Position numbers and translations under genes: made by a program. This document shows, piece by piece, positions 16,799 through 56,616 of a stretch of 64,000 bases of DNA (position 1 is its first letter; each line of letters opens with the position of its first letter). The DNA is taken from positions 496,001 through 560,000 of the forward strand of contig DATKUL010000001.1 of NCBI GenBank assembly GCA_035530615.1. Reading direction: 5' to 3'. Source of the DNA: Candidatus Paceibacterota bacterium. Its GTDB lineage: Bacteria; Actinomycetota; Actinomycetes; Nanopelagicales; Nanopelagicaceae. Under the pieces are notes generated by a model. It was not told the DNA's origin and ran no database searches. It worked only from the letters and a program-made list of their open reading frames with translations.

Positions 16799-16825
16799 GA
16801 TCGATCACACGACCCTTCAATTCGA

Positions 16826-17971: not shown

Positions 17972-17977
17972 TGGTTT

Positions 17978-20927: not shown

Positions 20928-20942
20928 TATTTGCCACTTCTC

Positions 20943-21779
20943 TTAACTTCTCTTATCTAAGAAATCTCGGAGGCCATCTCCAAGAAGATTGAATCCCAAA
21001 ATGAGCAGGGCGATCGCTATCCCCGGGAAAAGCATCACGTGAGGTGCGGCCAGAAAATCTATTCGCCCCTCGCTTAACATTGTGCCCCACTCAGGTGCCG
21101 GCGGTTGTGCGCCGATTCCCAGGAAGCCCAATGCGGCAATAATGAGAAGAGCCTCACTAGCGAAGAGACTCAAAATCACCATGATCGGACCAAGGATGTT
21201 CGGAAGCACATGGCGAATAAGGATTGAGCTCGCTTTACTACCGCTTGCTCGTGCCGCCATAACATAATCAGCTGACCTAACCTGCACAGTAAATCCACGA
21301 ATGTAGCGAACCATCTGAGGTGCCTGAGTCGCGACGATCGCCAGGATCAAAGTGAAAAAACCAGAGCCAAGAACGGCTACGAGAACAATCGCCAAAACCA
21401 TTGCCGGAAATGTGAGCACCGAATCAGATATCCAAGAGACAACCCGATCAATCCAACCGCCACGGTAACCTGCTAGCAATCCTGCCGGTAGTGCGAGAAG
21501 AATTCCGGTTGTAACCGCAGGTAGGACCACGATCAATTCAAAACTCGTTCCATGAATTACTCGCGACAGTATGTCGCGACCAAGCGCATCAGTTCCAAAG
21601 AGATGAGTTAACGAGGGTGTTTGTAAAGTGGCGAGCAAATTTTGTGTCGTTGGGTCATAGGGCGAAATTAGCGAAGCAAAAATTGATACCAACATAAAAA
21701 ATAGAACAATTCCAATTCCAATTCCAAGGCTTGCTCTTAGGTGAATGTTTCTCATCAATCTTCCTGGCAAATTATTCAT
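20943..21779 (-). CDS. ABC transporter permease, DppC/OppC type
   Basis: A 278-residue inner-membrane subunit with about six transmembrane helices. The N-terminal segment YDPTTQNLLATLQTPSLTHL and FGTDALGRDILSR are hallmarks of DppC-type permeases, and the EAA-loop equivalent is MAARASGSKASSILIRHVLPN. It overlaps the DppB-type gene by four bases. Together they form the channel of the operon's importer. Confidence 0.95.
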   Translation of the reverse strand: MNNLPGRLMRNIHLRASLGIGIGIVLFFMLVSIFASLISPYDPTTQNLLATLQTPSLTHLFGTDALGRDILSRVIHGTSFELIVVLPAVTTGILLALPAGLLAGYRGGWIDRVVSWISDSVLTFPAMVLAIVLVAVLGSGFFTLILAIVATQAPQMVRYIRGFTVQVRSADYVMAARASGSKASSILIRHVLPNILGPIMVILSLFASEALLIIAALGFLGIGAQPPAPEWGTMLSEGRIDFLAAPHVMLFPGIAIALLILGFNLLGDGLRDFLDKRS

Positions 21780-22708
21780 GCTTTTGCTCTTTGAATTTGG
21801 ATTCGTGGATCGATTCGCGACGAAACAATATCAACGCATAAATTGATAATGAGAAAACCAGCGACGAAAAAGATCGTGATTCCCTGCATCAGGGTGTAAT
21901 CACGTTGGCTTACCGCAGCGAGAAGAAGTTGTCCCATTCCGGGATATGAGAAAAGGTTTTCAACAACGACAGCGCCACCAAATAGGTAGCCGGCCTGCAA
22001 ACCAATAAGAACTAGAACGGATGGGAAAGCAGGCTTGAGTGCATGTACCAGAATCAACCTAACGGGTGAGACGCCACGAGAGTTTGCAGTTCGAATGAAG
22101 TCCTCACCCAGTATTTCAAGCATGGCAGCACGAGTGAGTCGTGCAATAAGTGCGACCAGCCTTGCCGAAACTGCGATCGCCGGCAGGATCAATCCGGCCA
22201 TTCCGGCAGATCCATAAGCTGGAAGCCATTGCAACTTAACAGCAAATAACTGGATAAGAAGCATGCCGAACCAGAAGTTCGGAACAGCTAGTAGTAAGAC
22301 CCAGAGAAGGAGTGTGCCTCTCCAAAAGAAGGATCTGGGTCTTACTGCCGCCATTACTCCGCCGACAAGGCCGATGCTCGTTGCAATGAGAAGGCTTAAA
22401 ATGAGCAGGGCCGCTGTTTCATCGACCCTGCTCATAATAACTGTCATTACTGGTTGCGAATAACTTGAAGATATACCTAGATCGCCTTGCACCAGGTTCT
22501 GCAGATACTCAATAAACTGAACAAAGATCGGTTGGTTGAGACCCATTTGCTCTCTCAATACATCAACCTGACTCTGCGTAGCATTTGCACCGAGTATCAA
22601 AGCAGCAGGATCCCCTGGAGCCATTCTGAAGAGTGCGAATACCGCTGTTGCAATTACAGAAACTTGAACAGCGATATTCGCCAAGCGTCCAGCTATGAAA
22701 CGTAGCAT
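21776..22708 (-). CDS. ABC transporter permease, DppB/OppB type
   Basis: A 310-residue permease with about six transmembrane helices. MAPGDPAALILG near the N-terminus, the EDFIRTANSRGVSPVRLILVH EAA-loop region and the C-terminal VVVENLFSYPGMGQLLLAAV are typical of DppB. It follows the binding-protein gene by 16 bp and is coupled to the DppC-type gene. Confidence 0.95.
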   Translation of the reverse strand: MLRFIAGRLANIAVQVSVIATAVFALFRMAPGDPAALILGANATQSQVDVLREQMGLNQPIFVQFIEYLQNLVQGDLGISSSYSQPVMTVIMSRVDETAALLILSLLIATSIGLVGGVMAAVRPRSFFWRGTLLLWVLLLAVPNFWFGMLLIQLFAVKLQWLPAYGSAGMAGLILPAIAVSARLVALIARLTRAAMLEILGEDFIRTANSRGVSPVRLILVHALKPAFPSVLVLIGLQAGYLFGGAVVVENLFSYPGMGQLLLAAVSQRDYTLMQGITIFFVAGFLIINLCVDIVSSRIDPRIQIQRAKA

Positions 22709-22724
22709 CCGCCCCCCTGCGAGG

Positions 22725-24377
22725 TTATTTACCTATCGTGCGTGATGGAAGCGTGAAAACAACTGGCAAGACCAGTGGAGTTGCCGCCTTGTCGTCGTAC
22801 GCGCTGAGGTTATTACGCACATAGAGCCAGATATATGGTGAATCACGCCAGATTTCACGACCAGCTTGCGCTAGAAGTGTCTTCTGGGTGGCTGGGTTAA
22901 CCGCCTGCAGTGATTTTGCAAGCCAATCGTCAACTTTCTTGTTGCTGTACCAGTTGAAATTCCAACCAGCAACCGGTCCGTCTGTCGCGTTTGACGTGTA
23001 CATAATGTCAAGCTGCAGGGCTCCGCTTCCGTGTGATGGATTGAATCCAAAGAGTGCCATGTCGAAATCAACATTGGCTCTAGCAACTTTGATCCCACTC
23101 CAAAAGACTGCTTTATCCACTTTTTGAAGTACTACATCGATGCCGACGTTCTTTAATTGCTCTTGAACCGCAGCTGCAACGAGTAAATCATTTGGATACA
23201 TGCCGTCAGGCACGCGAAGTCGGAATGAAACCGGAACACCGTTCTTTTCCAACATTCCATTCTTGCCTGGAGTGAGTCCGACTTGTTTCAACATCACCTT
23301 GGCTCGTTCTGGATCGTATTTATTGGGGCCGGCCGTCGCAAATCCGTTTGTTTTTGGTGCAAGCGGGCTGGTAAGGGGAGTGGCATACCCACGGAAGAGA
23401 GAAGCGGTAATCGATTGGACATCAACAGCGTAATTGAGTGCTTGGCGTACAGACTTAAGACGCAATATTGGATTATTGAAGTTCAGTCCTATTCCAAAGA
23501 CTTGAAGGCCTGGAATATTGATGATGTTCACATTCTTACTTGCGGACAGGCTTGCAACCTGTCCCACTGGCACCGCATCAACGATGTTTACCTGTCCAGC
23601 TTGAAGCGCTGCCATGCGTGCAGCAGGATCTCCAATGTAAACGTAGGTTATCGAATCGTAAACTGGTTTAGCACCGTAGTAATTGGCATTCGCCTTAAGC
23701 ACCAACTTTGTCCCGGGTTCAAATTTATCTAGTTTGTAAGGACCGGTGCCGACTGGACGGAGAGCAGCTTCCGCTGGTCCCTTAGCCGTGAGAAGTGGGC
23801 TAGGAATCAGTCCCGAACCATGTGCAAGTGTGTTCAACAATGCACCGAATGGCTTAGTAGTTGTAATCAAGACTGTATTGTCATCAACTTTGACTGTCGA
23901 TTCGATTGCCGACCATAAACCATAGGCCGAGACGTTATAAGTCTTATCAATCATCTTGGTGAAATATGCAACTACTGCATCAGCATTGAAAGGCTGACCA
24001 TCATGGAACTTGACACCCTTACGCAGTTCAAATGTCCACTTTCGGTCATCGTTAGAAACAGACCAAGCCGTTGCTAGATCTGGTTCGATCGTGAGGTTGC
24101 TCTTAAATCGGACCAGACCGGAATAGATGGCAAAAGCAGCCTCATAGCCAGCTGGATACACCTGAGGTTGAGTTCCCGCCGTTGCGAGAGAAGTAATAGG
24201 CACGCTTTGGGCGTACACAACGTCCTTTATTTTGGCGGCTTGCGGCTTAATTCGAACTGCAGCATTGGCTGACAGACTGCCCAGTGCCAAAGTTGGAAGA
24301 GAAATGCTGGCAAGTAAAAATCCCCCGATTAAGAGCAATTTTCGCCGTGATGACTTATGTCGATATATATCTTCCAT
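22725..24377 (-). CDS. ABC transporter substrate-binding protein, family 5
   Basis: A 550-residue exported binding protein (SBP_bac_5 family, used for peptides, nickel, opines and some oligosaccharides). The N-terminus has a signal sequence (RRKLLLIGGFLLASISLPTLAL, cleavage near ANA). The family block YEAAFAIYSGLVRFKSNLT and the WTFELRKGVKFHDGQPFNADAV motif follow. No lipobox cysteine is present, so membrane anchoring may be through the uncleaved segment. It is the first structural gene after the RpiR regulator. Ligand is unknown; the downstream enzymes suggest an amino-sugar acid or conjugate. Confidence 0.92.
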   Translation of the reverse strand: MEDIYRHKSSRRKLLLIGGFLLASISLPTLALGSLSANAAVRIKPQAAKIKDVVYAQSVPITSLATAGTQPQVYPAGYEAAFAIYSGLVRFKSNLTIEPDLATAWSVSNDDRKWTFELRKGVKFHDGQPFNADAVVAYFTKMIDKTYNVSAYGLWSAIESTVKVDDNTVLITTTKPFGALLNTLAHGSGLIPSPLLTAKGPAEAALRPVGTGPYKLDKFEPGTKLVLKANANYYGAKPVYDSITYVYIGDPAARMAALQAGQVNIVDAVPVGQVASLSASKNVNIINIPGLQVFGIGLNFNNPILRLKSVRQALNYAVDVQSITASLFRGYATPLTSPLAPKTNGFATAGPNKYDPERAKVMLKQVGLTPGKNGMLEKNGVPVSFRLRVPDGMYPNDLLVAAAVQEQLKNVGIDVVLQKVDKAVFWSGIKVARANVDFDMALFGFNPSHGSGALQLDIMYTSNATDGPVAGWNFNWYSNKKVDDWLAKSLQAVNPATQKTLLAQAGREIWRDSPYIWLYVRNNLSAYDDKAATPLVLPVVFTLPSRTIGK

Positions 24378-24419
24378 ATGAGCTATCTCGCTTTCTGGTA
24401 CCCGTTGTTGTGAGTGGTT

Positions 24420-25283
24420 TTACTTGTGGAGCTGTTCAGTAAGTTTGCGATTTGTGTTGATTGCTTCAATGACCGTTTCGTAACGCGTGAGGGAAACCCC
24501 GACAAAGACTGCGTCAAGGAGTGCTTGATGGGCCACACGAGAAGCCATGGCTTCGGTCCGGAAAACAGTTTCCGTTGATGACGTGAATAGAACAAAATCA
24601 CTTGCTTTAACAAGTGGCTGCTGACCATATTGGGTTACGGCGACACATATAGCGCCACGCTCTCGAGCTTTCTCCACCGCGAAGATAACGTCCCGAGAGC
24701 GACCAGAGTGTGAAATGACGACCACCACATCACCTTCGCCCAACATTGATACCCGACTGAGCTGCCCGCTACTGTCTGTGAGTACGTAGCACGGCACACC
24801 CAACCTCATGAACCGGTAATACGCATTCTGTGCTACAGAACCGGATGCTCCTAGCCCAAAGAAGCTGATGCTCTTGGCAGAGGAAATAACATCAATGATC
24901 GATTGGAACTGAGCGGCATCGATAATCTTTAATGTGTCATTCAATGTGTTGACGAACCCAGCAAAGACTTTGTTGAGCATCACAGATGGCTCATCATCAA
25001 GAGCAACATCTTCGTGAATTGCATCAATCTGATGACTCTTATGGTCTCGGGCTAGAGCAAGTCGTAGTTCTTGGAAACCGGAGAGATCTACTTTGCGACA
25101 CAGACGAATAATCGTTGCCTCACTGGTGCCACTGGCTTCCGCCACTACGTGAAGGGGACTCTTGATTACTAGTTCGGCGTTATTAGTGATGAAATTACAG
25201 GCGCTCGCTTCCGCGACAGTCACCTGGTCTTCGACCTTTCTCAGTTTGGTGAGAATGCCAACTTGAACCATGTCGATCCCCAC
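24420..25283 (-). CDS. MurR/RpiR family transcriptional regulator
   Basis: A 287-residue regulator with an N-terminal RpiR helix-turn-helix (about 1-77; VVAEASGTSEATIIRLCRKVDLSGF is the recognition region) and a SIS sugar-phosphate-binding domain (about 120-245; ISFFGLGASGSVAQNA, then VVISHSGRSRDVIFAVEKARERG). RpiR proteins commonly control amino-sugar or sugar-phosphate catabolism and sense phosphorylated intermediates. It is the first gene of the ten-gene operon; a pair of 15-bp near-palindromes lies 11 bp before its start, so autoregulation of the whole operon is likely. Confidence 0.93.
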   Translation of the reverse strand: MGIDMVQVGILTKLRKVEDQVTVAEASACNFITNNAELVIKSPLHVVAEASGTSEATIIRLCRKVDLSGFQELRLALARDHKSHQIDAIHEDVALDDEPSVMLNKVFAGFVNTLNDTLKIIDAAQFQSIIDVISSAKSISFFGLGASGSVAQNAYYRFMRLGVPCYVLTDSSGQLSRVSMLGEGDVVVVISHSGRSRDVIFAVEKARERGAICVAVTQYGQQPLVKASDFVLFTSSTETVFRTEAMASRVAHQALLDAVFVGVSLTRYETVIEAINTNRKLTEQLHK

Positions 25284-38655: not shown

Positions 38656-40389
38656 ATGTCGCTTAAACACACCCTAAGAAGTAACGAGTGGTTTGCTGGC
38701 AATGACGAAGTAGCTCTGTCGCATCGGGTCGTAATGGCATCGGTTGGATTGAAGATCGAGCCCGACAACAAGCGCCCTATCATCGGAATCGCCGATTCAT
38801 CTAGTGAGTTGAATCCCTGCAATCTTCCGCTACGCGACTACATCGATGACGTTAAGGCAGGAATTATTGATGCCGGCGGCATTCCAATCGTGTTTTCAGT
38901 TATGTCGCTCGGTGAAGATCTCATGAAACCTTCAGCGATGCTTTATCGCAATCTTCTTTCAATGGAAATCGAAGAATACCTTCGCTCTTACCCACTTGAT
39001 GGAGTAGTACTTCTAGCAAATTGTGACAAGAGCGTTCCGGGAGCACTTATGGGCGCTGCTAGCGCCAATCTTCCGACTGTTATGTTTACGGCGGGCGCTC
39101 GCCCCGCCGCGATGTATAAAGGAAAGAGAATCGGCACGGGCACTGATCTCTGGCGCATGTGGGCGGATTATCGATCTGAGAAGATTTCCGCGCAAGAGTG
39201 GCGCGAATTTGAAGGATGCCTCAGTTGTGGACTTGGTTCCTGCAACACGATGGGTACGGCCTCTTCCGTGGCTCTCATGATTGAAGCGTTGGGTATGTCG
39301 CTTCCTGGCACATCCACCATTCCAAATGACGATATATCTCGCAAAGCAGCGGCGTTTGCGTCGGGTCGCGAAGTCGTAAAAATGGTGAATGAGCAGATCC
39401 TTCCTTCAGACATCATGACGCCACAAGCATTCCGAAATGCAATACGTGTGCTTCATGCTTGCGGAGGTTCTACAAATGCTCTCATTCATCTATTAGCTAT
39501 CTCCGGTCGAATTGGTGGTGAACTCACTTTGGATAGCATCGCAAAACTTGGAGAGAACATTCCTGTGCTTGCAGATGTCGAACCTTCTGGTGTGGGGTTA
39601 ATTCAAGATTTTCATAAGGCAGGGGGATTGCCTGCTCTCGTCTACGAACTTCGTGAGTTACTAGAACTCGATGCAAAAACACTTACGGGGAAAACACTCG
39701 GTGAGCATATGTCTAAACGAGATGAATCTAATAAGGCAATTAGAGCAATTGATAATCCAATGCGACCCACTGGTGCGTTTTCCGTCGTCTTCGGCAACCT
39801 TGCTCCCAAGGGGGCAGTCATCAAAGTCTCTGCCGCCTCAAATGAACTCATGACGCACGCGGGTCCCGCGGTCATCTTTACCGGCTACGAAGACATGCGA
39901 TCACGAATTGATGATCCCAATCTCGATGTGACAAAAGAGAGCGTTCTTGTTCTCTCTGGCTGCGGCGCTGTAGGTGTTCCAGGAATGCCTGAATGGGGGA
40001 TGATTCCAATCCCAAAGAAACTTGCCACAGAAGGTGTCGTCGACATGGTTCGCGTAACAGATTCTCGTATGAGTGGTACTTCCTTTGGAACCTGCGTTCT
40101 TCACGTTGCCCCCGAAGGTGCGGTTGGTGGAGCACTGGGATTGATACAAGACGGCGACATCATCGAACTCGATGTCCAGAATCGCACTCTTCACGTACGA
40201 CTTTCTGATGAGGAACTTGAGGCGAGAAAGACTGCCTGGGTGCCGCCCGTGAGCCCACATTTGCGTGGTTGGCCAGCGCTATATCAAGCTCATGTTCTCC
40301 AAGCCGATGAAGGATGCGACTTTGATTTCCTCAAAGCACCAACTCCAGAATTGCGCAGATTCGTGCCCCCAGTCGTTGGACGATCCTAA
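38656..40389 (+). CDS. IlvD/Edd-family dehydratase (sugar-acid type)
   Basis: A 577-residue Fe-S dehydratase. Cluster and active-site blocks are NCDKSVPGALMGAA, FEGCLSCGLGSCNTMGTASS, with cysteines for the iron-sulfur cluster, and the C-terminal RVTDSRMSGTSFGTCVLHVAPE. The CNTMGT pattern and length fit aldonate dehydratases such as arabinonate/xylonate dehydratase at least as well as dihydroxyacid dehydratase IlvD. Operon context (IclR regulator, no branched-chain amino acid genes) supports a sugar-acid substrate. Its stop codon overlaps the stop of the convergent hydrolase gene. Confidence 0.85.
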   Translation: MSLKHTLRSNEWFAGNDEVALSHRVVMASVGLKIEPDNKRPIIGIADSSSELNPCNLPLRDYIDDVKAGIIDAGGIPIVFSVMSLGEDLMKPSAMLYRNLLSMEIEEYLRSYPLDGVVLLANCDKSVPGALMGAASANLPTVMFTAGARPAAMYKGKRIGTGTDLWRMWADYRSEKISAQEWREFEGCLSCGLGSCNTMGTASSVALMIEALGMSLPGTSTIPNDDISRKAAAFASGREVVKMVNEQILPSDIMTPQAFRNAIRVLHACGGSTNALIHLLAISGRIGGELTLDSIAKLGENIPVLADVEPSGVGLIQDFHKAGGLPALVYELRELLELDAKTLTGKTLGEHMSKRDESNKAIRAIDNPMRPTGAFSVVFGNLAPKGAVIKVSAASNELMTHAGPAVIFTGYEDMRSRIDDPNLDVTKESVLVLSGCGAVGVPGMPEWGMIPIPKKLATEGVVDMVRVTDSRMSGTSFGTCVLHVAPEGAVGGALGLIQDGDIIELDVQNRTLHVRLSDEELEARKTAWVPPVSPHLRGWPALYQAHVLQADEGCDFDFLKAPTPELRRFVPPVVGRS

Positions 40390-46456: not shown

Positions 46457-46957
46457 ATGAATATAGACCTTCTCCCCATGCGCGACACTCCAGAAAGTGC
46501 TGCGCTCGTCCTGCAGTGGAGCCTTAAATTATGGCGAAGCAAGAGCATTCCTGGTTTCTCAGAAGAGGACTGGACCAACTTCTATGAACGAGCGAAAACA
46601 GCTGACTTCAATGCATGGCACGGAGATGGCCAGGAACTAATTTACATCGCCAAGAGTGGGAATAAAGTAGTTGGCACAATCGCACTGACCGACTTTGATG
46701 ACCTAGAGGAATACCGAAGTCTCACTCCATGGGTCGCTGCATTTATTGTGCATCCAGAACTTCGCGGTCAAGGATACGGAACCAAGATCCTTGAAGCCCT
46801 GGAAGAGCAAGCCACATCACTCGGAATTAGAACGTTACATCTATGGACTGAAGACCACACAGGTTTTTACACCAAACGTGGATATGAGTTCATTTCTTCC
46901 GGAAAGTGGTCTCACCTGAGATTTGACGTGTTAAGGAAGAATTTGATTAACTCCTAA
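46457..46957 (+). CDS. GNAT-family N-acetyltransferase
   Basis: A 166-residue acetyltransferase. The acetyl-CoA-binding motif is VHPELRGQGYGTKILEALEEQA (R/Q-x-x-G-x-G/A at RGQGYG), preceded by the beta-strand WVAAFI and followed by LHLWTEDHTGFYTKRGYEF, the usual end of the fold. Substrate unknown. Its stop overlaps the convergent enolase-superfamily gene stop by four bases. Confidence 0.88.
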   Translation: MNIDLLPMRDTPESAALVLQWSLKLWRSKSIPGFSEEDWTNFYERAKTADFNAWHGDGQELIYIAKSGNKVVGTIALTDFDDLEEYRSLTPWVAAFIVHPELRGQGYGTKILEALEEQATSLGIRTLHLWTEDHTGFYTKRGYEFISSGKWSHLRFDVLRKNLINS

Positions 46958-48132
46958 ACAGTTGGGGTCTTGTAAAGAACCTTTCCTTCGACTTTGATTT
47001 CGACATCCTGAAGATATTTTTTAACAATATCCGTATCGAATTCAATGCCCAGTCCAGGACGCTCTGGCACAGAAATCATTCCGTCAGCACCCATCTCAAT
47101 TCGGTCCTTATTCAATTCAATGCAGAGTAATTTCGGCTCCATTGGGTACTCAACAATCCATGAATCCTTCAATCCCGCGAACGGATGCATTGATGCAGCA
47201 AGAGCTGACTGCGATGTGAAAGTGTGATTTACATACTGAACACCTTTTGATTTCGCGTACTGCGCTACCCGATACGCAGGTCCAATGCCACCAATGTAAC
47301 CAGTGTCGATCTGAATAAATCCGATACCGCCATTATCAATGAGATCCTCAGCTTGCATTGCATTATGCGCGCCTTCGCCACCGGCGAGTTTTACTTCGGG
47401 ATTGATCTTCGAGATTTCCTTGTAAAGGGAGATAGCGTAGGCATTTACTGGCTCTTCATACCATGTCACCTTTGCCTGCGCGAGCGCGGGAATTCTCAGC
47501 GCTGCCGCGTTGGCATCTTCATCGAAGATTGTGCCCGCATCAATCATAAGATGTGCGTCCGCACCGATTCCCTCTCTCGCCGAGAGTATGTGTGCTTCGT
47601 CATCTGCGACGGTTCCTCGGCCAAACGGACCCCAGCCAAATTTGATCGCAGAAAAACCTGCTTTTCGCATGGATCTTGCCTTCTCGGCCGTCGCCTCAGG
47701 TGTATCTCCAAAGAGGACGGAGGCGTAAGGAAGTTTCTTTTCGTTCGTGGAATAGCCAAGAAGTCGGTAGACCGGAAGCTCCTTTGCCTTTCCTAAGAGA
47801 TCCCAGAGTGCAATCTCGATTCCAGAGAATGTGAGATCGCTCTGAATAATTCCATAGAAGGACTGCGTGCGAACTTTTCGCGCAATACGTGCGATATCTG
47901 CGGGCGAATCGATGGTCTCACCCAGAACAGAGTCAATAACTGGATGGCAACCGCTATGTGACATCGGCGCAATCCAACTCGCAATTGATGTCAAAGGAGA
48001 TGCAACTGCTTCGCCCCATCCTTCGAAACTTCCGGCACGGATACGAAATATCAGGCCATCCTGACTTCCGTCGCCGATATCTAGCACAACTGGCATGCGA
48101 AGATAGAAAAGGTCTACTGATTCGATTTTCAT
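46954..48132 (-). CDS. Enolase-superfamily dehydratase/racemase (mandelate racemase group)
   Basis: A 392-residue TIM-barrel enzyme. The metal ligands are the Asp in LMIDAGTIFDED, the Glu in WYEEPVNA and the Glu in LAGGEGAHN; the candidate bases are the lysine in AIKFGWGPFGRG and the histidine in VNHTFTS. These fit sugar-acid dehydratases. It is the last gene of a nine-gene operon with a lactonase and an epimerase, so dehydration of an aldonate is likely. Substrate not predictable. Its end overlaps the convergent GNAT gene. Confidence 0.87.
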   Translation of the reverse strand: MKIESVDLFYLRMPVVLDIGDGSQDGLIFRIRAGSFEGWGEAVASPLTSIASWIAPMSHSGCHPVIDSVLGETIDSPADIARIARKVRTQSFYGIIQSDLTFSGIEIALWDLLGKAKELPVYRLLGYSTNEKKLPYASVLFGDTPEATAEKARSMRKAGFSAIKFGWGPFGRGTVADDEAHILSAREGIGADAHLMIDAGTIFDEDANAAALRIPALAQAKVTWYEEPVNAYAISLYKEISKINPEVKLAGGEGAHNAMQAEDLIDNGGIGFIQIDTGYIGGIGPAYRVAQYAKSKGVQYVNHTFTSQSALAASMHPFAGLKDSWIVEYPMEPKLLCIELNKDRIEMGADGMISVPERPGLGIEFDTDIVKKYLQDVEIKVEGKVLYKTPTV

Positions 48133-48145
48133 AGTTCTCCCATTA

Positions 48146-50077
48146 TCAACTGGTGGATGGTGCGGTTAGAAGTTTGGAAATTTCATCCAATGTCTCAGGA
48201 TTGGCCAGTGAAGTGAGATTACGCACTGCCCGTCCGTGCGCTAAATCTGCAACTGCCACTTCTGCCAATTTGCCATTAAACGTCCGTGGTAAATCCGAGA
48301 CAAAGTAAATTTCACCTGGAACATGTCTTGGTGAACATGCACTCCTAATTTTGCGTTTTATTTGCGCTTTCAAATCTTCTCTATCGCTAATACCTCCAGA
48401 AAGTACTGCCAAGAGAACTATCCGTTCGTCACCATCCCATGGCTGAGTAAAAGCCAATGAGCTGGAAACTCTTTCGATTCCTTCAAGGGCACTATAAATT
48501 TCTCCAGTACCAATTCGCACTCCCGAAACATTGAGCGTGGCATCAGAGCGCCCATGAATGACGATGCCTCCTTGTGTGGTCCAGGAGGCTAAATCTCCGT
48601 GAACCCAGATTCCATCCCACGTATCAAAGTAAGTTGACTTGAATCTCTCGCCATTCTTATCCCCCCAAATCCCCAATGGAACAGAAGGAAACGGTCTTTT
48701 ACATACGAGTTCGCCTAAGACATCCGGTGGGCAACTTTCCCCGTTCTCGTCCCACACATCCACATCCATCCCCAGAATCGGACCCTGCATCTGCCCTGCG
48801 TACGCTGGTTTTAGGGGATCGGGTCCGACAAAACAGCCCACTAAATCCGTTCCGCCAGAGAAAGGGGATATATGGACTCGCGATCCCAATTGGGTGCTGA
48901 TCCACTGCGCGGTATCCGCAGAAAGGGGTGATCCAGTGACCATCAACGATCGAAGATGTGGGAACGGGCCAATATCGGCAGGCGAAAGATTGGATTCTTT
49001 TATGACATCAAGTAAACGTGCAGAAACACCTAAGTGAGTGATTCTCTGATTCTTTGCCAAGCGAAAGAGTTGAAGTGTATCGGGATAGCTGGGCGAGCCA
49101 TCAAATAGAACAAGCGTCGCACCCGATGCAAGAACCGATATTTCCCAGTTCCACATCATCCAGCCTGTAGTCGTATAGAAGGCGACCCGATCACCTTCTC
49201 GAATATCGCAGTGAAGACGTTGTTCGGCTAAATGTTTGAGAAGCACTCCGCCTGATCTATGTATCAAACCCTTGGGTGCACCCGTTGTCCCCGAGGTAAA
49301 AAGCACATAGGCCGGATGATCAAAAGATCGTCGCGTGTAGGTTAGAGGTTCGACTGAGTGGGGGATATCCGTCCAATGAATGGCCTCAACTTCGGCAACC
49401 TCGCCATTTCCATTCACCAGGATCAAAAGCTCCAGAGAGGGAATTGCAGATGCAACTGCAGAGATCAATTCGGTGCGGTCGAAGACTTTGCCCGCCCATA
49501 AATAGGAAGTTGTCGCTACGAGCACTTTAGGTTCGAGTTGAGAAAAACGAGAAAGTATTGCCGCATCACCGAATTCTGGCGATGCACTCGCGACAACCGC
49601 TCCCAATTCAAAACCAGCGATTGCAAAAGAGAGAACTTCAAAACCAATCGGCAAAATCGAAACTATTCGATCGCCTGGTTCGACTCCTTTTCCTTTGAGA
49701 AAAGTTACAAGATTGCCAACCATCTCCTTAAGTTGACCACCAGAGTATTCAATTCCTAAACATTCTAGGTCGTTCTCATCGACGGTCGACACCCCAACTG
49801 TTCTGACAAGTAAATTCTCCGCAAGATTGATCTGCGCGTCTGGAAAAAAACGAGAGTCAGGCAATGAAACGGTTGGCTGGCTTCGTGCACCCTTTTCACC
49901 CACCACCTCGCAGAAATCCCAAAGTGCAGACCAGAATTCGTCAGAGTGTCCCACTGACCATTTCTGTAAATCTGCACTTGTCGACCCACCGTGAAGGTGA
50001 TGAGTCGCTTTGATAAATTTCGAATAGGAAGTTGATTCGGGCTCTATAGGAGCCCAGATCTGAACCGCTTGCGTCAT
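48146..50077 (-). CDS. Acetoacetyl-CoA synthetase-like acyl-CoA ligase
   Basis: A 643-residue adenylate-forming ligase. N-terminal LQKWSVGHSDEFWSALWDFC and FFPDAQINLAENLL, the phosphate motif LFTSGTTGAPKGLIHRSGG, TTTGWMMWNWEISVLASGA and the C-terminal GKLAEVAVADLAHGR fit acetoacetyl-CoA synthetases closely. It activates acetoacetate or another short 3-oxo acid in the cytosol. It overlaps the hydroxybutyrate dehydrogenase-like gene by four bases. This pairing suggests ketone-body-type use, within what otherwise looks like a sugar operon. Confidence 0.88.
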   Translation of the reverse strand: MTQAVQIWAPIEPESTSYSKFIKATHHLHGGSTSADLQKWSVGHSDEFWSALWDFCEVVGEKGARSQPTVSLPDSRFFPDAQINLAENLLVRTVGVSTVDENDLECLGIEYSGGQLKEMVGNLVTFLKGKGVEPGDRIVSILPIGFEVLSFAIAGFELGAVVASASPEFGDAAILSRFSQLEPKVLVATTSYLWAGKVFDRTELISAVASAIPSLELLILVNGNGEVAEVEAIHWTDIPHSVEPLTYTRRSFDHPAYVLFTSGTTGAPKGLIHRSGGVLLKHLAEQRLHCDIREGDRVAFYTTTGWMMWNWEISVLASGATLVLFDGSPSYPDTLQLFRLAKNQRITHLGVSARLLDVIKESNLSPADIGPFPHLRSLMVTGSPLSADTAQWISTQLGSRVHISPFSGGTDLVGCFVGPDPLKPAYAGQMQGPILGMDVDVWDENGESCPPDVLGELVCKRPFPSVPLGIWGDKNGERFKSTYFDTWDGIWVHGDLASWTTQGGIVIHGRSDATLNVSGVRIGTGEIYSALEGIERVSSSLAFTQPWDGDERIVLLAVLSGGISDREDLKAQIKRKIRSACSPRHVPGEIYFVSDLPRTFNGKLAEVAVADLAHGRAVRNLTSLANPETLDEISKLLTAPSTS

Positions 50078-50847
50078 CTAGCGGTCCAACCATTATCAAT
50101 AGAAAACGAAGATCCGGTGATGGATCCGGAATGTGGACCACACAAATAGAGGGCCATAGCTGCAACTTCTTCGACTTCAACAAGTCGCTTTATCGCGACT
50201 GGCGCCAACATAATCTCATCAAGTACACGCTCTTCAGAAATGTTGTTCAGCGTAGCCTGACTGGCGATCTGTTTTTCCATCAAATTGGTTCGCACAAACG
50301 CCGGCGCAATAGTGTTTGCAGTAACTCCGTAGGAACCGGCTTCCAGACTCACTGCCTTATGAAGACCCTCAAGGCCATGCTTCACTGTCACGTAGACGGA
50401 TTTATATGGAGATGCGACGTGTCCATGAACACTCGAAATTCCAATGATCCGACCCCATTTGTTCTTATACATATAAGGGAGGGATTTCTTAATCAGATAA
50501 AGCGGCGTCCGTAACATCAAGGAAAACATGAAGTCGACCTTCTCCATGGGAAACTGCTCCAACGGGGATACATGTTGGATGCCTGCATTGTTGACCAAGA
50601 TATCTATCTCTAGATCATCAGGAAAGAATTTCTCCGGAGTAGTGAGGTCGGCGATGACAATTTCTGCACTGCACTCTTGGCGAAGTTCATGAAGTGCTGG
50701 CTCATCTCGATCTACCGCAATCACCCTGGCTCCATTAGCAGCCAGAGTGATTGCGCACGCTTTTCCGATCCCACTTGCCGCGCCCGTAACAAGGGCGGTC
50801 TTGCCAACCAGTGAGATTGACTCGGCATCATTCACAGTAGGAAACAT
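50074..50847 (-). CDS. SDR oxidoreductase, 3-hydroxybutyrate dehydrogenase-like
   Basis: A 257-residue short-chain dehydrogenase from ATG 50847. NAD-binding motif TGAASGIGKA, NNAGIQHVSPLEQFP, catalytic SSVHGH...YVTVKHG (serine, Tyr and Lys) and the PAFVRTNLMEKQI end, all close to bacterial BdhA. It begins four bases after the SMP-30 stop and is coupled to the acetoacetyl-CoA synthetase-like gene. The hydroxyacid substrate is inferred. An in-frame upstream extension is rejected because it overlaps the SMP-30 gene. Confidence 0.85.
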   Translation of the reverse strand: MFPTVNDAESISLVGKTALVTGAASGIGKACAITLAANGARVIAVDRDEPALHELRQECSAEIVIADLTTPEKFFPDDLEIDILVNNAGIQHVSPLEQFPMEKVDFMFSLMLRTPLYLIKKSLPYMYKNKWGRIIGISSVHGHVASPYKSVYVTVKHGLEGLHKAVSLEAGSYGVTANTIAPAFVRTNLMEKQIASQATLNNISEERVLDEIMLAPVAIKRLVEVEEVAAMALYLCGPHSGSITGSSFSIDNGWTAR

Positions 50848-50851
50848 ACAC

Positions 50852-51691
50852 TTATTGGCGACCACGTACCCCGAGGGAAATTGCCAGGACCTCTCCTGGA
50901 AGATTAACAAGTGCCTTACTCTCATCAACATCTGAGACCGCAATGAAGAGGGTTCTTAATTCGGTACCGCCGAACACGCAGTCAAAAACACCACGACCCC
51001 GTATTTCGATTGCTCGTTCTACCACACCACTGACTGGATCCACCAGCAAGACTGCTTCGCCATACGCAGAGGCAACCCAAATATTTCCTTCTTCATCAAC
51101 AGTGAGCCCATCAGGAGTCGAGTTCGCGGGCAACGTGATCCGCTTCGCAATTCTCACTTCACCAAGAGAGTCGGTTTCGATAATTGTCAATCGATCCGCG
51201 AAAGTCTCAGCGACTACAAGATGATTTGCATCTAATCGGGCCATCCCATTCGGAAAAACTAAGGAATCAATCGGGAAATCCAGTACGCCGCCTTTATACC
51301 GCGCTAGAAATGACTCCTTTGGGCTCTCCGTTTCGGGATTGAACCCATAACCTCCAATCCACGCCGTTCCGTCTTCATCCACCAACATGTCATTGGCGGG
51401 ATATTGCCACGTCTCACTCAAATCCACATAAACCTTCTTTGCGCCTGCAGAATCAATTGAAATAACCTGGCGAGCTTCGCAGTCAACTGCAAGGAGATCC
51501 CCATTGGATAGCCAACCTAATCCGCTCACTACAGGAGGAATGGAAACAACCTCAAAATATCTGCCCGTATCAATATCTGCTCGAAATACCTTGCCCGCCA
51601 GGACATCTGAAAACCACAACTCGCCGTTATGCCAGCGCATCGCCTCAGGGAAAGCTAGCCCTGTCAAAACTGTTCTGAGATCCTTCAACAT
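50852..51691 (-). CDS. SMP-30/gluconolactonase-family protein
   Basis: A 279-residue six-bladed beta-propeller hydrolase. Metal-site segments are FPEAMRWHNGELWFSDV (Glu), WQYPANDMLVDEDGTAWIGGYG (Asn) and STPDGLTVDEEGNIWVASAYG (Asp). It would open an aldonolactone made by the preceding sugar dehydrogenase. Its ATG directly follows the stop of the SDR gene, one of nine tightly packed operon genes. Confidence 0.9.
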   Translation of the reverse strand: MLKDLRTVLTGLAFPEAMRWHNGELWFSDVLAGKVFRADIDTGRYFEVVSIPPVVSGLGWLSNGDLLAVDCEARQVISIDSAGAKKVYVDLSETWQYPANDMLVDEDGTAWIGGYGFNPETESPKESFLARYKGGVLDFPIDSLVFPNGMARLDANHLVVAETFADRLTIIETDSLGEVRIAKRITLPANSTPDGLTVDEEGNIWVASAYGEAVLLVDPVSGVVERAIEIRGRGVFDCVFGGTELRTLFIAVSDVDESKALVNLPGEVLAISLGVRGRQ

Positions 51692-52435
51692 TTAGAACCT
51701 CGAAGACAATCCACCGTCGACAACAAGAGTTTGACCAGTGACGTACGTATTTGTCTCACTCGCCAACCAAGCAATTGTTCTGGCGATCTCAATTGGCATG
51801 GCAGCTCTCTGCAATGGAAGACGCTTATTCGCTAGATAAATATTCTTAAACCATTCCGATTCGATCTCGTCCACTCCGTCGACGACAGACATTCGCGTCA
51901 TGACAAAACCTGGCGCGATGGCGTTCACAAGAACGCCTGACTCGGCCAATTCAAGCGCTGCAGTGCGCGTGGCTGCCTCCAATCCAGCTTTTGTTATGTC
52001 GTAAGCGATAGAAGCAGGCTCGCTCTGTTTCGAGTGAACACTCGTAACGCTAACGATTCGACCGTACCCTTTTTCAGCCATGACATTTCCGACAAATTTC
52101 ATAAGATAAACGGGGGCGTTGAGATTCACCGCAAGGGTTTTCTGATAAGAACTTGCATCTAACTCGGAGAGAAAATTAGGGATCGAGACCCCCGCGACAT
52201 TGACTAGCACTTCTATCGAACCAAACATCTTCTTCACCATCGACACGGCTTCTTCGCAAGCCTTTAGGTCAGAAAGATCGAGAATATGGCTTGTAATGTT
52301 CTCCGAAGTCTGCGCGGGCTCGCGGTCAAAGATTGCAACTTTAGCTCCAAGATCAGCCAATAACTGTGCCGTCGCACCGCCAATACCGTTTGCTCCACCC
52401 GTAACGATTGCGTGTTGTCCCTTAAACGAAATCAT
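51692..52435 (-). CDS. SDR family oxidoreductase, probable sugar dehydrogenase
   Basis: A 247-residue dehydrogenase from ATG 52435, which follows a GGGAGAG site. NAD-binding TGGANGIGGATAQLL, NVAGVSIPNF, catalytic SVTSVHS...YDITKAG and NAIAPGFVMTRM are canonical. Its position before a lactonase and after an aldose epimerase fits oxidation of a sugar at C1; alternatives such as a keto-acid step cannot be excluded. It overlaps the epimerase gene by 14 bases. Confidence 0.88.
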   Translation of the reverse strand: MISFKGQHAIVTGGANGIGGATAQLLADLGAKVAIFDREPAQTSENITSHILDLSDLKACEEAVSMVKKMFGSIEVLVNVAGVSIPNFLSELDASSYQKTLAVNLNAPVYLMKFVGNVMAEKGYGRIVSVTSVHSKQSEPASIAYDITKAGLEAATRTAALELAESGVLVNAIAPGFVMTRMSVVDGVDEIESEWFKNIYLANKRLPLQRAAMPIEIARTIAWLASETNTYVTGQTLVVDGGLSSRF

Positions 52436-53342
52436 TTCGCTCTCCCATGCTCGTTGATGCAAGTTTCAATGCTACCCACCAATGAAAAGTTGTATGTGGC
52501 TCAAGAGTGGTGGCTGTTCCTGTCCTGATTGATTCCCCTAAACCTGCTCCATGAGGAGCTGTTGAAGGCTCGATGCCCAGACAGAAGTACTGGCCGTTCC
52601 AAGGGTCTGCCTGCGTAGCACCCATTTCTTCCCAGATCCACGCGTAAGGAAGGGTCTCCGTGTCCCAAAGAAGTGTGGCAGTGAGATTTTCCCCAACGAT
52701 ACTGACACCTGATGAGTCCACATTGGCTAGGAGGCCAAGACGGGCAGGCGTATCTTTTGTGACGGTGGACCAATCGCTCCGCGCCATTTCACGCCACGGT
52801 CTAAAAAGTGCGCCGTTTATGGAACCGTCGTAGTCTAATTCCATAAATTTCGCCTCTTCATTCAAAGCAAGTGTCACGCTCTCCGACAGAAGTAAGTCCC
52901 CGAAAATCACATGTTCAGTGAGAATGAACTCCCTGGGAAGATCACTTAGATTCTCCAATAATCCGGAGAGTGTTATCTGATCGCTCATTATTTTTACTTT
53001 GCGCGTACTTTTCAGCTCTTCGCCTTGCCAAGAAAGAATTACTTCATCTGGCGATACTTGCTCAACCGTCCAAGGAGACTGTGAAGCATTCCCATGAAAT
53101 CCTTGCGGGTACTTTCCTTCTCTGTGTTCTCCTCCTGCATTCGGTAGAAGTGGTTGCCATCCACCATTCCATGCGCGAACCCAATCCTCTTCATTACCAA
53201 GCTCGACTGGACCAACCGCAGGCCTTGGCGGACGCGCCATAAATTGAATTCCTTTATACGAGGCCTCACTAATTGCTCCCCCACATTCGGGCAATACAAC
53301 AATTTCAAGATCGCCATTCGCAAGAGTGAGGCTAGTCGGCAT
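52422..53342 (-). CDS. Aldose 1-epimerase-like protein
   Basis: A 306-residue galactose-mutarotase-fold protein. It opens with LTLANGDLEIVVLPECGGAI, then NGGWQPLLPNAGGEH (substrate-binding loop), FHGNASQSPW (with catalytic-type His), and later FCLGIEPSTAP, with Glu near the end. It would interconvert sugar anomers for the following dehydrogenase. The ATG at 53342 overlaps the permease stop by one base and has AAAGGAGAG before it; a GTG one codon earlier is less likely. Confidence 0.82.
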   Translation of the reverse strand: MPTSLTLANGDLEIVVLPECGGAISEASYKGIQFMARPPRPAVGPVELGNEEDWVRAWNGGWQPLLPNAGGEHREGKYPQGFHGNASQSPWTVEQVSPDEVILSWQGEELKSTRKVKIMSDQITLSGLLENLSDLPREFILTEHVIFGDLLLSESVTLALNEEAKFMELDYDGSINGALFRPWREMARSDWSTVTKDTPARLGLLANVDSSGVSIVGENLTATLLWDTETLPYAWIWEEMGATQADPWNGQYFCLGIEPSTAPHGAGLGESIRTGTATTLEPHTTFHWWVALKLASTSMGERNDFV

Positions 53343-54193
53343 CACTCTCCTTTGACAGAACCAGAGGTAAGCCCGGCAACAAAATAACGTTGACCAAATA
53401 GGTAGGCAATAAGTGGGGGTACCGTGGCAATCGTCATTCCCGCCATGATTGTAGGAATCGAGAGAGAGTAGCGATTTTGAAACCCCGTGATCCCAACCAT
53501 CAATGTCTTCTTCTCGTCGCTCTGCAAGAATACAAGGGCAAGTAGCAACTCATTCCAAGCCCACAGTAGATTCACAACCGTCAAGGTGATTAATGGTGGA
53601 CCCGAAAGTGGCAGGACTATTGAGCGAAAGGTGCGTAAATCCGACGCCCCATCAATCTCTGCCGCTTCGATAATGCTGGCCGGAATTGCCCTGAAGAAAT
53701 TAGTCAAAAGATAGACGGAGAATGGCAGCATGAGACCGACATAGATCATGATCAAAATCCGAAAGGTCGAGATCCATCCGAGTGTCGCCCCGAAGCGGAA
53801 AAGCGGAATGAGCAGCACAACTGGAGGAACCACCATCAACGAAACCAGAATTCCCAAGACTGTCTCGCGACCACGCCAGACCCAGTGAGCAAAGCCCCAG
53901 GCTGCCATCGCTGCTATCGCAACGGTTAGGACGACGGAAGAAGTCGTGACAATCAAACTATTTGTAAACCAACGAGGAAATTGATCATTCCAAGCAGCCT
54001 TGTAACCAGCAAAACTCGGATGCAGCGGAAGTGACCAAGGGTGTGAGAGGAATTCTTCCTGGGTCTTCAGAGAAGCGGTAATCATAAGATATCCGGGCAC
54101 GATTGCGGTGGCCGTGAAGAGAATTTGAATTAATTGGCGTGCAGTGATTCCAACCACCACAACTGGACTCTTACGATTGTTCTTACTCATCAA
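53342..54193 (-). CDS. Sugar ABC transporter permease, MalG type
   Basis: A 283-residue membrane subunit with about six helices. The EAA-loop EAAEIDGASDLRTFRSIVLP is conserved, as are SLKTQEEFLSHPWSLP and the C-terminal GQRYFVAGLTSGSVKG. It overlaps the MalF-type gene by about 11 bases. The operon contains no ATPase, so a shared MsiK-type ATPase encoded elsewhere is presumably used. Confidence 0.94.
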   Translation of the reverse strand: MMSKNNRKSPVVVVGITARQLIQILFTATAIVPGYLMITASLKTQEEFLSHPWSLPLHPSFAGYKAAWNDQFPRWFTNSLIVTTSSVVLTVAIAAMAAWGFAHWVWRGRETVLGILVSLMVVPPVVLLIPLFRFGATLGWISTFRILIMIYVGLMLPFSVYLLTNFFRAIPASIIEAAEIDGASDLRTFRSIVLPLSGPPLITLTVVNLLWAWNELLLALVFLQSDEKKTLMVGITGFQNRYSLSIPTIMAGMTIATVPPLIAYLFGQRYFVAGLTSGSVKGE

Positions 54194-55115
54194 AAATCCC
54201 CGATTGTGCCCTGCTCTGGAGTTTGAAGAAGCCTACGATGAAGAAAAGCGTTGAGATCAGAAGAAGGACAGCCGCAGCGGCGGCCAACTCAGGGGCTCGG
54301 TTTTGGAAGGCACTTCTATAGATGTAGAGTTCGGAGACCATGGTCGCGTTGCCAGGACCACCCTGCCCATTGGTCATGACATAAACATAATTGAATACCC
54401 ATGAGACCATAACAATGGCCTCATTGATTGCGTAAAAAAGAATCACGGATCGAAGTTGAGGGATAGTGATTTTCAGATGTCTCTTAAAGAATCCAGCGCC
54501 ATCGATCTGAGCCGCCTCGAGAAGTTCTGTCGGCAACGAAATAAGTCTTGCCAGAATCAGAATCGTGCCAAAGCCCACTTCTTTCCAAATAATAATTGCA
54601 CTCATGGTCACTAATGCTTGATTCGGATCGCCTAACCAATCAAGAGCAAAACTTTGAAGTCCCAACGACTTAAGGCCCGCATTAAGCGCTCCATTGAGTT
54701 GTAGAAGTTGTCCGAATACAACCCCAACAACTGGGATCGGAAGCAGGTAGGGCAGAAAGACAGCACTGCGATAAAAGCGCATTCCGCGTCTAGTTTCAAA
54801 GAGCAGGATTGCAAATAGCAATGCCAGTGCAACCAGAATCGGTACCGTGAAAAGTAAGAGGGTGTTATGAAATATTGCAGTTTGAAAGAGTGGGTCAGTG
54901 ACAACTAATTGAAAATTATCGAAACCCACCCAGTCACCACGATATTTGAAAGACTGTTGAAGAAGATCTACAACTGAATATCCAAAAATAAAGAGAATCC
55001 CGATGCCAGCCGGAAGGATCCATGGCCACGGGCCAAAATCTCTACGCCTACCGCGCGCCGCCCCTGATGAATCAGGGGCGGACGCGAGATATGCCGTTGT
55101 TGCGGCTGAGGTCAT
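54183..55115 (-). CDS. Sugar ABC transporter permease, MalF type
   Basis: A 310-residue permease with about six helices. An N-terminal PWILPAGIGILFIFGYSVVDLL helix, ELLEAAQIDGAGFFKRHLKITIPQL as the EAA loop, and TNGQGGPGNATMVSELYIYR toward the end are characteristic of the MalF-like class. It overlaps the binding protein gene by four bases. Partner of the MalG-type gene. Confidence 0.94.
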   Translation of the reverse strand: MTSAATTAYLASAPDSSGAARGRRRDFGPWPWILPAGIGILFIFGYSVVDLLQQSFKYRGDWVGFDNFQLVVTDPLFQTAIFHNTLLLFTVPILVALALLFAILLFETRRGMRFYRSAVFLPYLLPIPVVGVVFGQLLQLNGALNAGLKSLGLQSFALDWLGDPNQALVTMSAIIIWKEVGFGTILILARLISLPTELLEAAQIDGAGFFKRHLKITIPQLRSVILFYAINEAIVMVSWVFNYVYVMTNGQGGPGNATMVSELYIYRSAFQNRAPELAAAAAVLLLISTLFFIVGFFKLQSRAQSGIFDE

Positions 55116-56464
55116 TTAGCCCAGGCGGTGAAGTTCTTCAGTAAGTTGCGATCCGTCTTGCGCAATCGCTCCATGACTGACTGCATATTTGCAGCCGCTT
55201 GAGCTCCCGTCCGAGTTCCCTTCAATACGAGTTGGGCATTTGCAAATACCGCATCCGTATCTAGTTGAGCGGGAATGAAGTTCTCCAAATATGGCCCACC
55301 CGAAAGAACTTTGGTGAAGAGCGCCTTCTTCACAGGATCTGCAACGCCAGCGACATTGAATCGATCATCGGCTGGCATTGAACCTGTCTTTGCAAACCAG
55401 TTATCCAATTGAGCGCTCTCATGCGAGAACATGAGGAAATCAGCTGCAACTTGTGGGTACTTCGACCACTTGGTTATACCGATCGTCTGGGAGGTCGTAC
55501 CGAGTTTACCTGCGAAGGGACCAGTTCCCCATTTTGGCATTGGCATGACAACCACCTTTGACGCTCCAACTTTTGCAACAAAGTTAGGAGTGTCTGGGCC
55601 GGCAACGACGGTCATAGCCGCTTTGCCACTTACCCAGAGCTGTTGCGCTTGATACAACTCTAAGGAGTTGATATCTGCATTCCAGCAGTGGTGCTTCTGA
55701 GTCTCTTCCAAGCGTGTCCACCAAGCAGCGTGAATTGGATCCGTAAATTTCTGTGTACCGAGTACAGCAGCAATTACATCTTTGCTCGATGTAACCGACT
55801 GCGATCCAAGCATCGAGTAGAGCCAACCTCCGAACCATCCATCTTTGATGCCTCCAGCAAAGGTTGTTACGCCCTTAGCGCTGAGCACATCGCATGACTT
55901 AAGAAGAGCACTCCACGTTGTTGGAACAGTAAGCCCGTATTTTCTAAATACATCTTTGCGTGCAACAACGGGGAATGATGGATTCACATACCAGGGAGCA
56001 GTCCAAATCTTTCCTTGAAATGCCTCTTCAGTATTTGCGTTTATATAGTGAGCCAATTCCTTGGCGGGAATGTAATCTGAAACCGCCGCAATCTGTCCGT
56101 CCCATCCTGGCTGTTGCGCATAAATTCCGCCCCAGAAATACTGAAGGTCTGGGCCTTTCTTAGCAGCAGCAGCTGCCGCGAAGGCGGGGATCAATCCATC
56201 AGTTGTCTGCAGAACAGTCTGAATCGTGACATTTGGGTGTTTCACTTTATAAGCCTTAATCGTCTCCGCAAGCCAAACCTTGGCACCTGGCGCTTCTTGT
56301 TCACCCCACCACCACATGACCAGTTTTACCGGGCCAGTCGGGAATGCGGCTTTTGACGCTGCTATTGCTCCGGTTGATGTCAGTGAAGAGATCAAAATCG
56401 CGCTAGCGCAAATGATCGCGCCTGCAATTCCACGACGCTTCATAAAAGCTCCAATTCTTTTCAT
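55112..56464 (-). CDS. Extracellular solute-binding protein, family 1
   Basis: A 450-residue exported sugar-binding protein. From ATG 56464 it has a signal peptide (KRRGIAGAIICASAILISSL, likely cleavage near AIA). PVKLVMWWWGEQEAPGAKVW marks the start of the mature protein, and FPVVARKDVFRKYGLTVPTTW and FAGKLGTTSQTIGI are family-1 blocks. No lipobox is present at the expected place. The start is chosen from the GGAA six bases upstream; TTG 56476 and ATG 56470 are alternatives. It is the first gene of the nine-gene operon. Confidence 0.9.
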   Translation of the reverse strand: MKRIGAFMKRRGIAGAIICASAILISSLTSTGAIAASKAAFPTGPVKLVMWWWGEQEAPGAKVWLAETIKAYKVKHPNVTIQTVLQTTDGLIPAFAAAAAAKKGPDLQYFWGGIYAQQPGWDGQIAAVSDYIPAKELAHYINANTEEAFQGKIWTAPWYVNPSFPVVARKDVFRKYGLTVPTTWSALLKSCDVLSAKGVTTFAGGIKDGWFGGWLYSMLGSQSVTSSKDVIAAVLGTQKFTDPIHAAWWTRLEETQKHHCWNADINSLELYQAQQLWVSGKAAMTVVAGPDTPNFVAKVGASKVVVMPMPKWGTGPFAGKLGTTSQTIGITKWSKYPQVAADFLMFSHESAQLDNWFAKTGSMPADDRFNVAGVADPVKKALFTKVLSGGPYLENFIPAQLDTDAVFANAQLVLKGTRTGAQAAANMQSVMERLRKTDRNLLKNFTAWAK

Positions 56465-56578
56465 GGGCATTTCCAAAAGACGCCCTCACGTGGATAGGTT
56501 TCCAGTGGTCAAGATTCCTCTGTCTCGCGCTCACTTGTCAAGGATTTTCATGTACCGCTTAGGCGCCACTAAATATGT

Positions 56579-56599
56579 CCATCTCACTCTGAGAGATGG
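56579..56599 (-). terminator. Possible galU terminator hairpin
   Basis: CCATCTC-TCAGAGT-GAGATGG on the minus strand, 18 bp after the galU stop, followed by ATATTT. A seven-base stem with a weak T-run. It separates galU from the sugar operon downstream. Confidence 0.5.
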
Positions 56600-56616
56600 C
56601 ACACGATCAGCGTGAG

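Follow-up and report, generated by a model that had tools for sequence, protein, structure and literature searches.

The window described here is a stretch of 64,000 nucleotides (G000:C1:496001-560000) in a genome of 2.16 Mb that is assembled in three contigs and is 100% complete. It carries a nine-gene operon on the minus strand (46954-56464) in which sugar-oxidation genes enclose two genes of ketone-body type, one for a 3-hydroxybutyrate-dehydrogenase-like SDR (BDH) and one for an acetoacetate-CoA-ligase-like enzyme (AACS). BDH-AACS is a lineage-specific unit that is tied to sugar-acid metabolism by its co-occurrence with a sugar-acid dehydratase (DHT); gene order adds to this link in two arrangements. 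The sugar part of the operon is already known in kind, and the BDH-AACS insert is the unusual part. Our best explanation of the whole, put forward tentatively, is a sugar trunk with a BDH-AACS side unit that acts on an acid of the 2-deoxyaldonate type and not on 3-hydroxybutyrate/acetoacetate as such. Gene families are assigned by Pfam and NCBIfam profiles and by sequence search of the PDB, and the comparison set is 171 genomes of the Nanopelagicaceae-type family. The three genes that carry the argument are:

46954..48132, minus strand: enolase-superfamily sugar-acid dehydratase of the 2HZG type (DHT; PDB 2HZG, E 2e-132)
48146..50077, minus strand: acetoacetate-CoA-ligase-like enzyme (AACS; TIGR01217, 609 bits, cut-off 521)
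50074..50835, minus strand: 3-hydroxybutyrate-dehydrogenase-like SDR (BDH; TIGR01963, 276 bits, cut-off 307; PRK12429, 252.5 bits, cut-off 258)

The BDH-AACS pair in the family genomes

BDH of the window type is present in 12 of the 171 genomes, and AACS directly follows it in 12/12. The window-type AACS proteins form a separate clade with 100/100 support and always adjoin window-type BDH; the branching tracks genera, which suggests mostly vertical descent. DHT is found in all 12 genomes with the pair and in 28/171 across the family, usually unlinked to the pair (nominal p 3e-11 from a naive count that ignores genome relatedness). The co-occurrence is 5/10 versus 0/11 within genus g1 (p 0.012) and 3/3 among 7/17 across genera (p 0.05). 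As a control, DHT accompanies other AACS types in 2/10 genomes, near the family background (12/12 versus 2/10, p 1.4e-4). Another DUF4432 gene precedes BDH-AACS in genomes G202 and G444. In the cultured acI-type strain IMCC26077 (G271), DHT, the importer and BDH-AACS are each at a different locus. The earlier note had joined a sugar pathway to this pair of ketone-body-like enzymes, and the strict DHT co-occurrence and the DUF4432 neighbor support a connection over and above the shared operon. Two other candidate partners were considered. Thiolases are present in 30/30 genomes tested, which rules them out as partners specific to the pair, and glycerate kinase shows no pattern of co-occurrence.

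BDH falls below the cut-offs of both 3-hydroxybutyrate dehydrogenase (HBDH) subfamily models, which are still its top scorers. Its relatives score 282-285 on TIGR01963, and one of them passes PRK12429 at 260. The family's other HBDH is under the TIGR01963 cut-off and over the PRK12429 cut-off. BDH keeps Q87, H137, K145 and Q189 at the positions that bind the carboxylate of a 3-hydroxycarboxylate; we take Gln/His/Lys/Gln to be the carboxylate ligands on the model of the Pseudomonas fragi enzyme. With these residues intact, BDH should therefore still accept a 3-hydroxy acid, perhaps one with a different tail. The family's other HBDH keeps Trp187 of P. fragi, the catalytic Asn and SEKQPS, whereas the window BDH has Phe (Phe180), Met and LAPVAIKR. 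The altered residues presumably lie where HBDH touches the methyl end of its substrate. The Trp187 difference is weak, as the PDB HBDH 3V2H has Tyr at this position. AACS is over the curated equivalog cut-off of TIGR01217; members of its clade score 588-593 bits and other AACS 638-735 bits. The surroundings of its acyl-pocket motif are unlike those of most other sampled AACS. From these features, BDH-AACS probably oxidises a 3-hydroxy acid and activates the product with CoA. The odds are roughly equal between an acid that comes from sugar, of the 2-deoxyaldonate type, and 3-hydroxybutyrate itself.

Elsewhere in the family, AACS of other types stand in further settings. In five genomes (G077, G193, G246, G319 and G334) AACS is near HBDH and an alpha/beta-hydrolase, mostly with a Liv-type ABC importer. 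These clusters look like a means of taking up 3-hydroxybutyrate or its oligomers. Their HBDH and AACS are not orthologous to the window pair, and the family therefore already has a separate apparent ketone-body system. In three other genomes (G044, G155 and G165) AACS lies inside inositol clusters, belongs to a separate clade and has no HBDH partner. For these inositol clusters it is of note that acetoacetate and 3-hydroxybutyrate have chemical analogues in malonate semialdehyde and 2-deoxy-5-ketogluconate. G228 has an AACS divergent from an HBDH of the 3-hydroxybutyrate-cluster type, beside iol genes.

L182:2769-10923, L183:2886-11192, L184:8791-17100, L177 and L186: Liv-type importer/alpha/beta-hydrolase/HBDH/AACS clusters (AACS and HBDH by profile)
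L178:7805-9697, L187:9309-11201 and L185:9926-11818: AACS-type ligase in inositol clusters (iolC and iolB models passed; Cgl0159-like aldolase)

The sugar-oxidation core of the operon

The nine open reading frames are all intact and are separated by -11 to +16 nt. They are transcribed in the order sugar-binding lipoprotein, permease, permease, DUF4432, SDR1, SMP-30, BDH, AACS, DHT. The six genes ahead of the pair, with the upstream region, are:

56465..56616, minus strand: upstream region, a stretch with AAAATCCTTGACAA in common with the sister genome (comparison by eye)
55112..56464, minus strand: sugar-binding lipoprotein of an ABC importer (family 1, CUT1 type; PDB phmmer matches are sugar-binding proteins)
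54183..55115, minus strand: ABC permease 1, UgpA/GlcT-like (PF00528; NCBIfam UgpA/GlcT)
53342..54193, minus strand: ABC permease 2, GlcU/MalG-like (PF00528; NCBIfam GlcU, 130 bits)
52422..53345, minus strand: DUF4432 protein, probable sugar mutarotase/epimerase (PF14486, 44.8 bits, cut-off 32.5)
51692..52435, minus strand: SDR1, probable aldose 1-dehydrogenase or sugar-acid dehydrogenase (SDR family, below all equivalog cut-offs)
50852..51691, minus strand: SMP-30/gluconolactonase-type lactonase (PF08450, 106 bits)

The sister genome G454 (locus L036) repeats this gene order, spread over two contigs, so the arrangement is not due to chance. Identity to the window operon is 79-93% for most genes and ~62-67% for two DUF4432 fragments. 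The nine-gene operon of the earlier note is thus reproduced in a second genome. Its remark that the operon has no aldolase and no transport ATPase also holds, as neither is among the nine genes. Actinobacterial CUT1 importers normally have no ATPase of their own, and one MsiK-type ATPase serves several of them. Promoter and terminator scans of the operon region give scores inside the range of shuffled controls. The sugar-binding lipoprotein may start instead at an ATG near 56443, and its orthologues occur in 12/171 family genomes.

SDR1 has the catalytic Ser-Tyr-Lys and Asn. The SMP-30 protein has E16, N100, N148 and D194 at known metal-ligand positions. DHT has K164, D198/E227/E253 and D276/H303, the sets expected of active members. 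With a dehydrogenase, a lactonase and a dehydratase in one operon and their catalytic residues intact, the core genes are a non-phosphorylative aldose-oxidation set of an already known kind, in agreement with the sugar or sugar-acid pathway proposed earlier. The aldose epimerase of that proposal is not a PF01263 protein; it belongs to Pfam DUF4432, and the mutarotase-like set H84/H145/E259 is kept, invariant between the window protein and the DUF4432 gene that adjoins BDH-AACS in G202 and G444. The DUF4432 protein has no sequence match in the PDB, and a fold prediction from three sequences (pLDDT 41) gives a model too poor for use. At L156:4702-5187 and L157:3633-4118 a VOC/glyoxalase-family protein takes the place of DUF4432 between permease and SDR1, possibly as a non-homologous replacement.

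DHT is a sugar-acid dehydratase as judged from its gene context. Its closest PDB entry is 2HZG of Cereibacter sphaeroides, from an uncharacterised group; it reaches no NCBIfam equivalog cut-off, and our literature search found no paper that mentions 2HZG. In the homology search with DHT, the nearest named relatives of the window genome are Nanopelagicaceae-type freshwater actinobacteria. Homologous sets of DHT, importer and SDR1 occur at L027, L029, L048 and L049 without BDH or AACS, and the L029 set terminates in an FAH hydrolase. DHT is also found near DHDPS-family aldolase genes in Skermanella and at L028/L050.

Candidate enzymes for cleavage of the 2-keto-3-deoxy acid are located only outside the operon. 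At G000:C2 ~736.8-741.2 kb (L122:9797-14199) an FAH hydrolase gene heads a row that continues with a GntR regulator and LutA/B/C-type L-lactate-oxidation genes. This hydrolase is 47% identical to that of L029, and in NCBIfam it scores best against 2,4-didehydro-3-deoxy-L-rhamnonate hydrolase (259 bits, under the cut-off of 500). Taken together, the genes of the row resemble the final part of a route for 6-deoxysugar oxidation. The same genome has a KDG kinase (66% identical) and a KDPG aldolase (44% identical) whose counterparts in G459 lie beside DHT in divergent orientation. Either FAH/LutABC or KDG kinase/KDPG aldolase could complete the DHT branch. With two unlinked candidate endings in this genome, the sugar trunk therefore needs neither BDH nor AACS, and a new trunk pathway is unnecessary. 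Given these two known endings, and the hydrolase at the end of the related L029 set, the idea that the trunk must end in a 3-oxo acid for want of an aldolase is unsupported.

An IlvD/EDD dehydratase that is L-arabinonate-dehydratase-like (694 bits, cut-off 882) is at window 38656-40389, ~6.6 kb beyond the operon end, and a homologue is near BDH-AACS in G202 and G444. At L157:14277-17921 (G228), close to the SDR1/importer cluster, an enolase-family dehydratase, an aldo/keto reductase and mutarotase-like and L-fuconolactonase-like proteins probably form a pathway for the oxidation of L-fucose or L-rhamnose. The cluster at window 14817-25283 has a DgaE-like PLP ammonia-lyase, a DagF-like KDGP aldolase, a D-glutamate-cyclase-like protein and an FGGY kinase, with an oligopeptide-type ABC importer and an RpiR regulator. 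It looks like one for D-glucosaminate use, with profile scores under the cut-offs.

Proposed mechanism and its alternatives

Gene content, gene order, homology, conserved catalytic residues and co-occurrence are supported directly; from them we infer all of the reactions, the sugar and the 2-deoxyaldonate. The CUT1 importer would bring in an aldose, which DUF4432, SDR1 and SMP-30 would convert to the aldonate. DHT would dehydrate the aldonate to a 2-keto-3-deoxy acid, and unlinked enzymes would cleave this acid, either the FAH hydrolase with L-lactate oxidation or KDG kinase with KDPG aldolase. BDH-AACS would be a two-gene side unit placed between the lactonase and dehydratase genes. BDH would oxidise a 3-hydroxycarboxylate to a 3-oxo acid, AACS would add CoA, and a resident thiolase would free acetyl-CoA. 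The likeliest substrate of the pair may be a 3-hydroxy acid from the same sugar metabolism, e.g. 2-deoxyribonate or analogues. A 2-deoxyaldonate is a natural sugar-derived candidate because published deoxyribonate pathways share this logic, with the CoA step elsewhere (PMC6365646).

Several observations weigh against a sugar-derived substrate. The genomes are related, so the co-occurrence p values make the link look stronger than it is. BDH-AACS is stand-alone in most genomes, with no sugar gene adjoining (e.g. g5 and g144 genomes), and at the thresholds used the g144 genomes hold BDH-AACS and DHT without importer or SDR1. HBDH-like proteins of Actinobacteria outside the family also have Tyr or Phe in place of the Trp, and most of the altered lid. 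In other families, AACS from the wider clade of the window enzyme adjoin kynurenine genes and are uninformative on sugar. BDH retains all 3-hydroxybutyrate-binding residues, and the score of AACS exceeds the equivalog cut-off for acetoacetate-CoA ligase. No enzyme was found that connects the DHT product to a 2-deoxyaldonate. This genome has no glycerate kinase of the PF02595 type, which would be expected for the known deoxyribonate route; other glycerate kinase families were not searched. No other AACS is present in this genome at E 1e-120, so the pair could be its ketone-body route.

This last possibility is a strong contender, which we consider quite possible at somewhat less than even chance: a ketone-body pair for 3-hydroxybutyrate/acetoacetate is placed in a sugar operon, with only expression in common. 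The AACS score on TIGR01217, the top scores of BDH to HBDH models, its unbroken Q/H/K/Q ligands, the stand-alone pairs of the g5 and g144 genomes, the lack of a second AACS and the presence of thiolases all fit it. However, the strict co-occurrence with DHT is not seen for other AACS types, and a DUF4432 gene adjoins the pair in G202/G444. No 3-hydroxybutyrate importer or esterase adjoins the pair, unlike the apparent 3-hydroxybutyrate clusters of the family, and the BDH residues are changed at what we take to be the contact with the substrate methyl end.

A linear trunk was the earlier proposal, with sugar leading to a CoA-activated 3-oxo acid. Here oxidation of the DHT product by BDH at C4 would give a 2,4-diketo-3-deoxy acid, and the ligase would stand in for the FAH hydrolase. 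We know of no precedent for an AACS that acts on a 2,4-dioxo acid, which counts against this route. Gene order and the FAH hydrolase at the cluster end in L029 agree with it; L-KDF dehydrogenases also belong to the SDRs, and BDH2, their homologue in mammals, was formerly mistaken for HBDH (PMC11199699). BDH is much nearer to HBDH (195 bits) than to the L-KDFDH structures 8Y11/8XWK (~105 bits). L-KDFDHs depend on Arg clusters, with Arg148 in all types 1-4 and further Arg ligands (PMC11199699). At the Arg148 position, three residues before the catalytic Tyr, BDH has Lys145 and SDR1 has Ser, and BDH has Gln at the HBDH carboxylate site; these positions were matched by eye, and the other Arg positions were not aligned. 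An FAH hydrolase also exists in this genome, and we regard the linear route as improbable.

Also improbable is an acylated sugar, from which SMP-30 as an esterase would free a 3-hydroxybutyryl (or similar) decoration for BDH-AACS to burn while the rest burns the sugar: the lactonases of the SMP-30 family have esterase relatives, and this reading would account for one operon with both parts, but there is no dedicated esterase, and in the g144 genomes, which have BDH-AACS and DHT, neither importer nor SDR1 reaches the thresholds used.

Known systems and significance

The BDH-AACS side unit on a 2-deoxyaldonate most resembles oxidative deoxyribose/deoxyribonate catabolism (PMC6365646), with a dehydrogenase, a lactonase, an SDR whose substrate is a 3-hydroxy sugar acid, activation with CoA and acetyl-CoA release. 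The point of CoA esterification in deoxyribonate catabolism differs among bacteria: a beta-keto acid cleavage enzyme (BKACE) is used in Pseudomonas and Paraburkholderia, and a ligase acts before oxidation in Klebsiella (Price et al. 2019, PMC6365646). As published, the pathway comprises a glycerate kinase and either BKACE or a ligase with a 3-hydroxyacyl-CoA dehydrogenase. In the window operon, in contrast, the AACS-type ligase would act after oxidation, and there is an extra enolase-family dehydratase. BKACE (PF05853) is absent from all 12 BDH-AACS genomes, which rules out a BKACE route for the pair; with no PF02595 in the window genome either, this is therefore not a known version of the deoxyribonate pathway. 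BDH-AACS might instead be a third version of 2-deoxyaldonate oxidation, in which the ligase activates the free 3-keto acid and thiolase cleaves the product. The unit would then salvage 2-deoxyaldonates that arise from 2-keto-3-deoxy acids by loss of CO2, whether enzymatic or caused by peroxide in sunlit water. The strict DHT co-occurrence would mean that the pair consumes such 2-deoxyaldonates, a by-product of the sugar pathway. We consider this specific version rather unlikely.

The trunk is similar to the non-phosphorylating L-fucose/L-rhamnose route 3 (PMC11199699) in its mutarotase, aldose dehydrogenase, lactonase, enolase-family dehydratase and SDR, and in the FAH hydrolase and L-lactate-oxidation genes of the same genome. 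It differs from route 3 in that the FAH hydrolase is outside the operon, the lactonase is SMP-30 and not of the amidohydrolase type, the SDRs have no Arg at the L-KDFDH position checked and the dehydratase falls in the 2HZG group, which is uncharacterised. As in 3-hydroxybutyrate utilisation by HBDH and AACS, both enzyme families are in one operon and the carboxylate-binding residues are kept; unlike the apparent 3-hydroxybutyrate-uptake clusters of the family (L177, L182-L184 and L186), the window pair is non-orthologous and adjoins no 3-hydroxybutyrate importer or hydrolase. The inositol clusters (L178, L185 and L187) also place an AACS-type ligase within a sugar/polyol catabolic cluster, but theirs is of a separate clade without an HBDH partner. 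Our literature search found no paper that combines acetoacetyl-CoA synthetase with sugar-acid terms.

Few bacteria of fresh water are as abundant as the Nanopelagicaceae (acI), and the question of their carbon sources is an old one. Should the pair act on 3-hydroxybutyrate, the operon would be a case of ketone-body use wired to sugar supply. If it acts on a sugar-derived 3-hydroxy acid, the automatic ketone-body annotation would be wrong for a whole clade, and the pair would provide a direct route from sugar acid to acetyl-CoA that current pathway tools miss.

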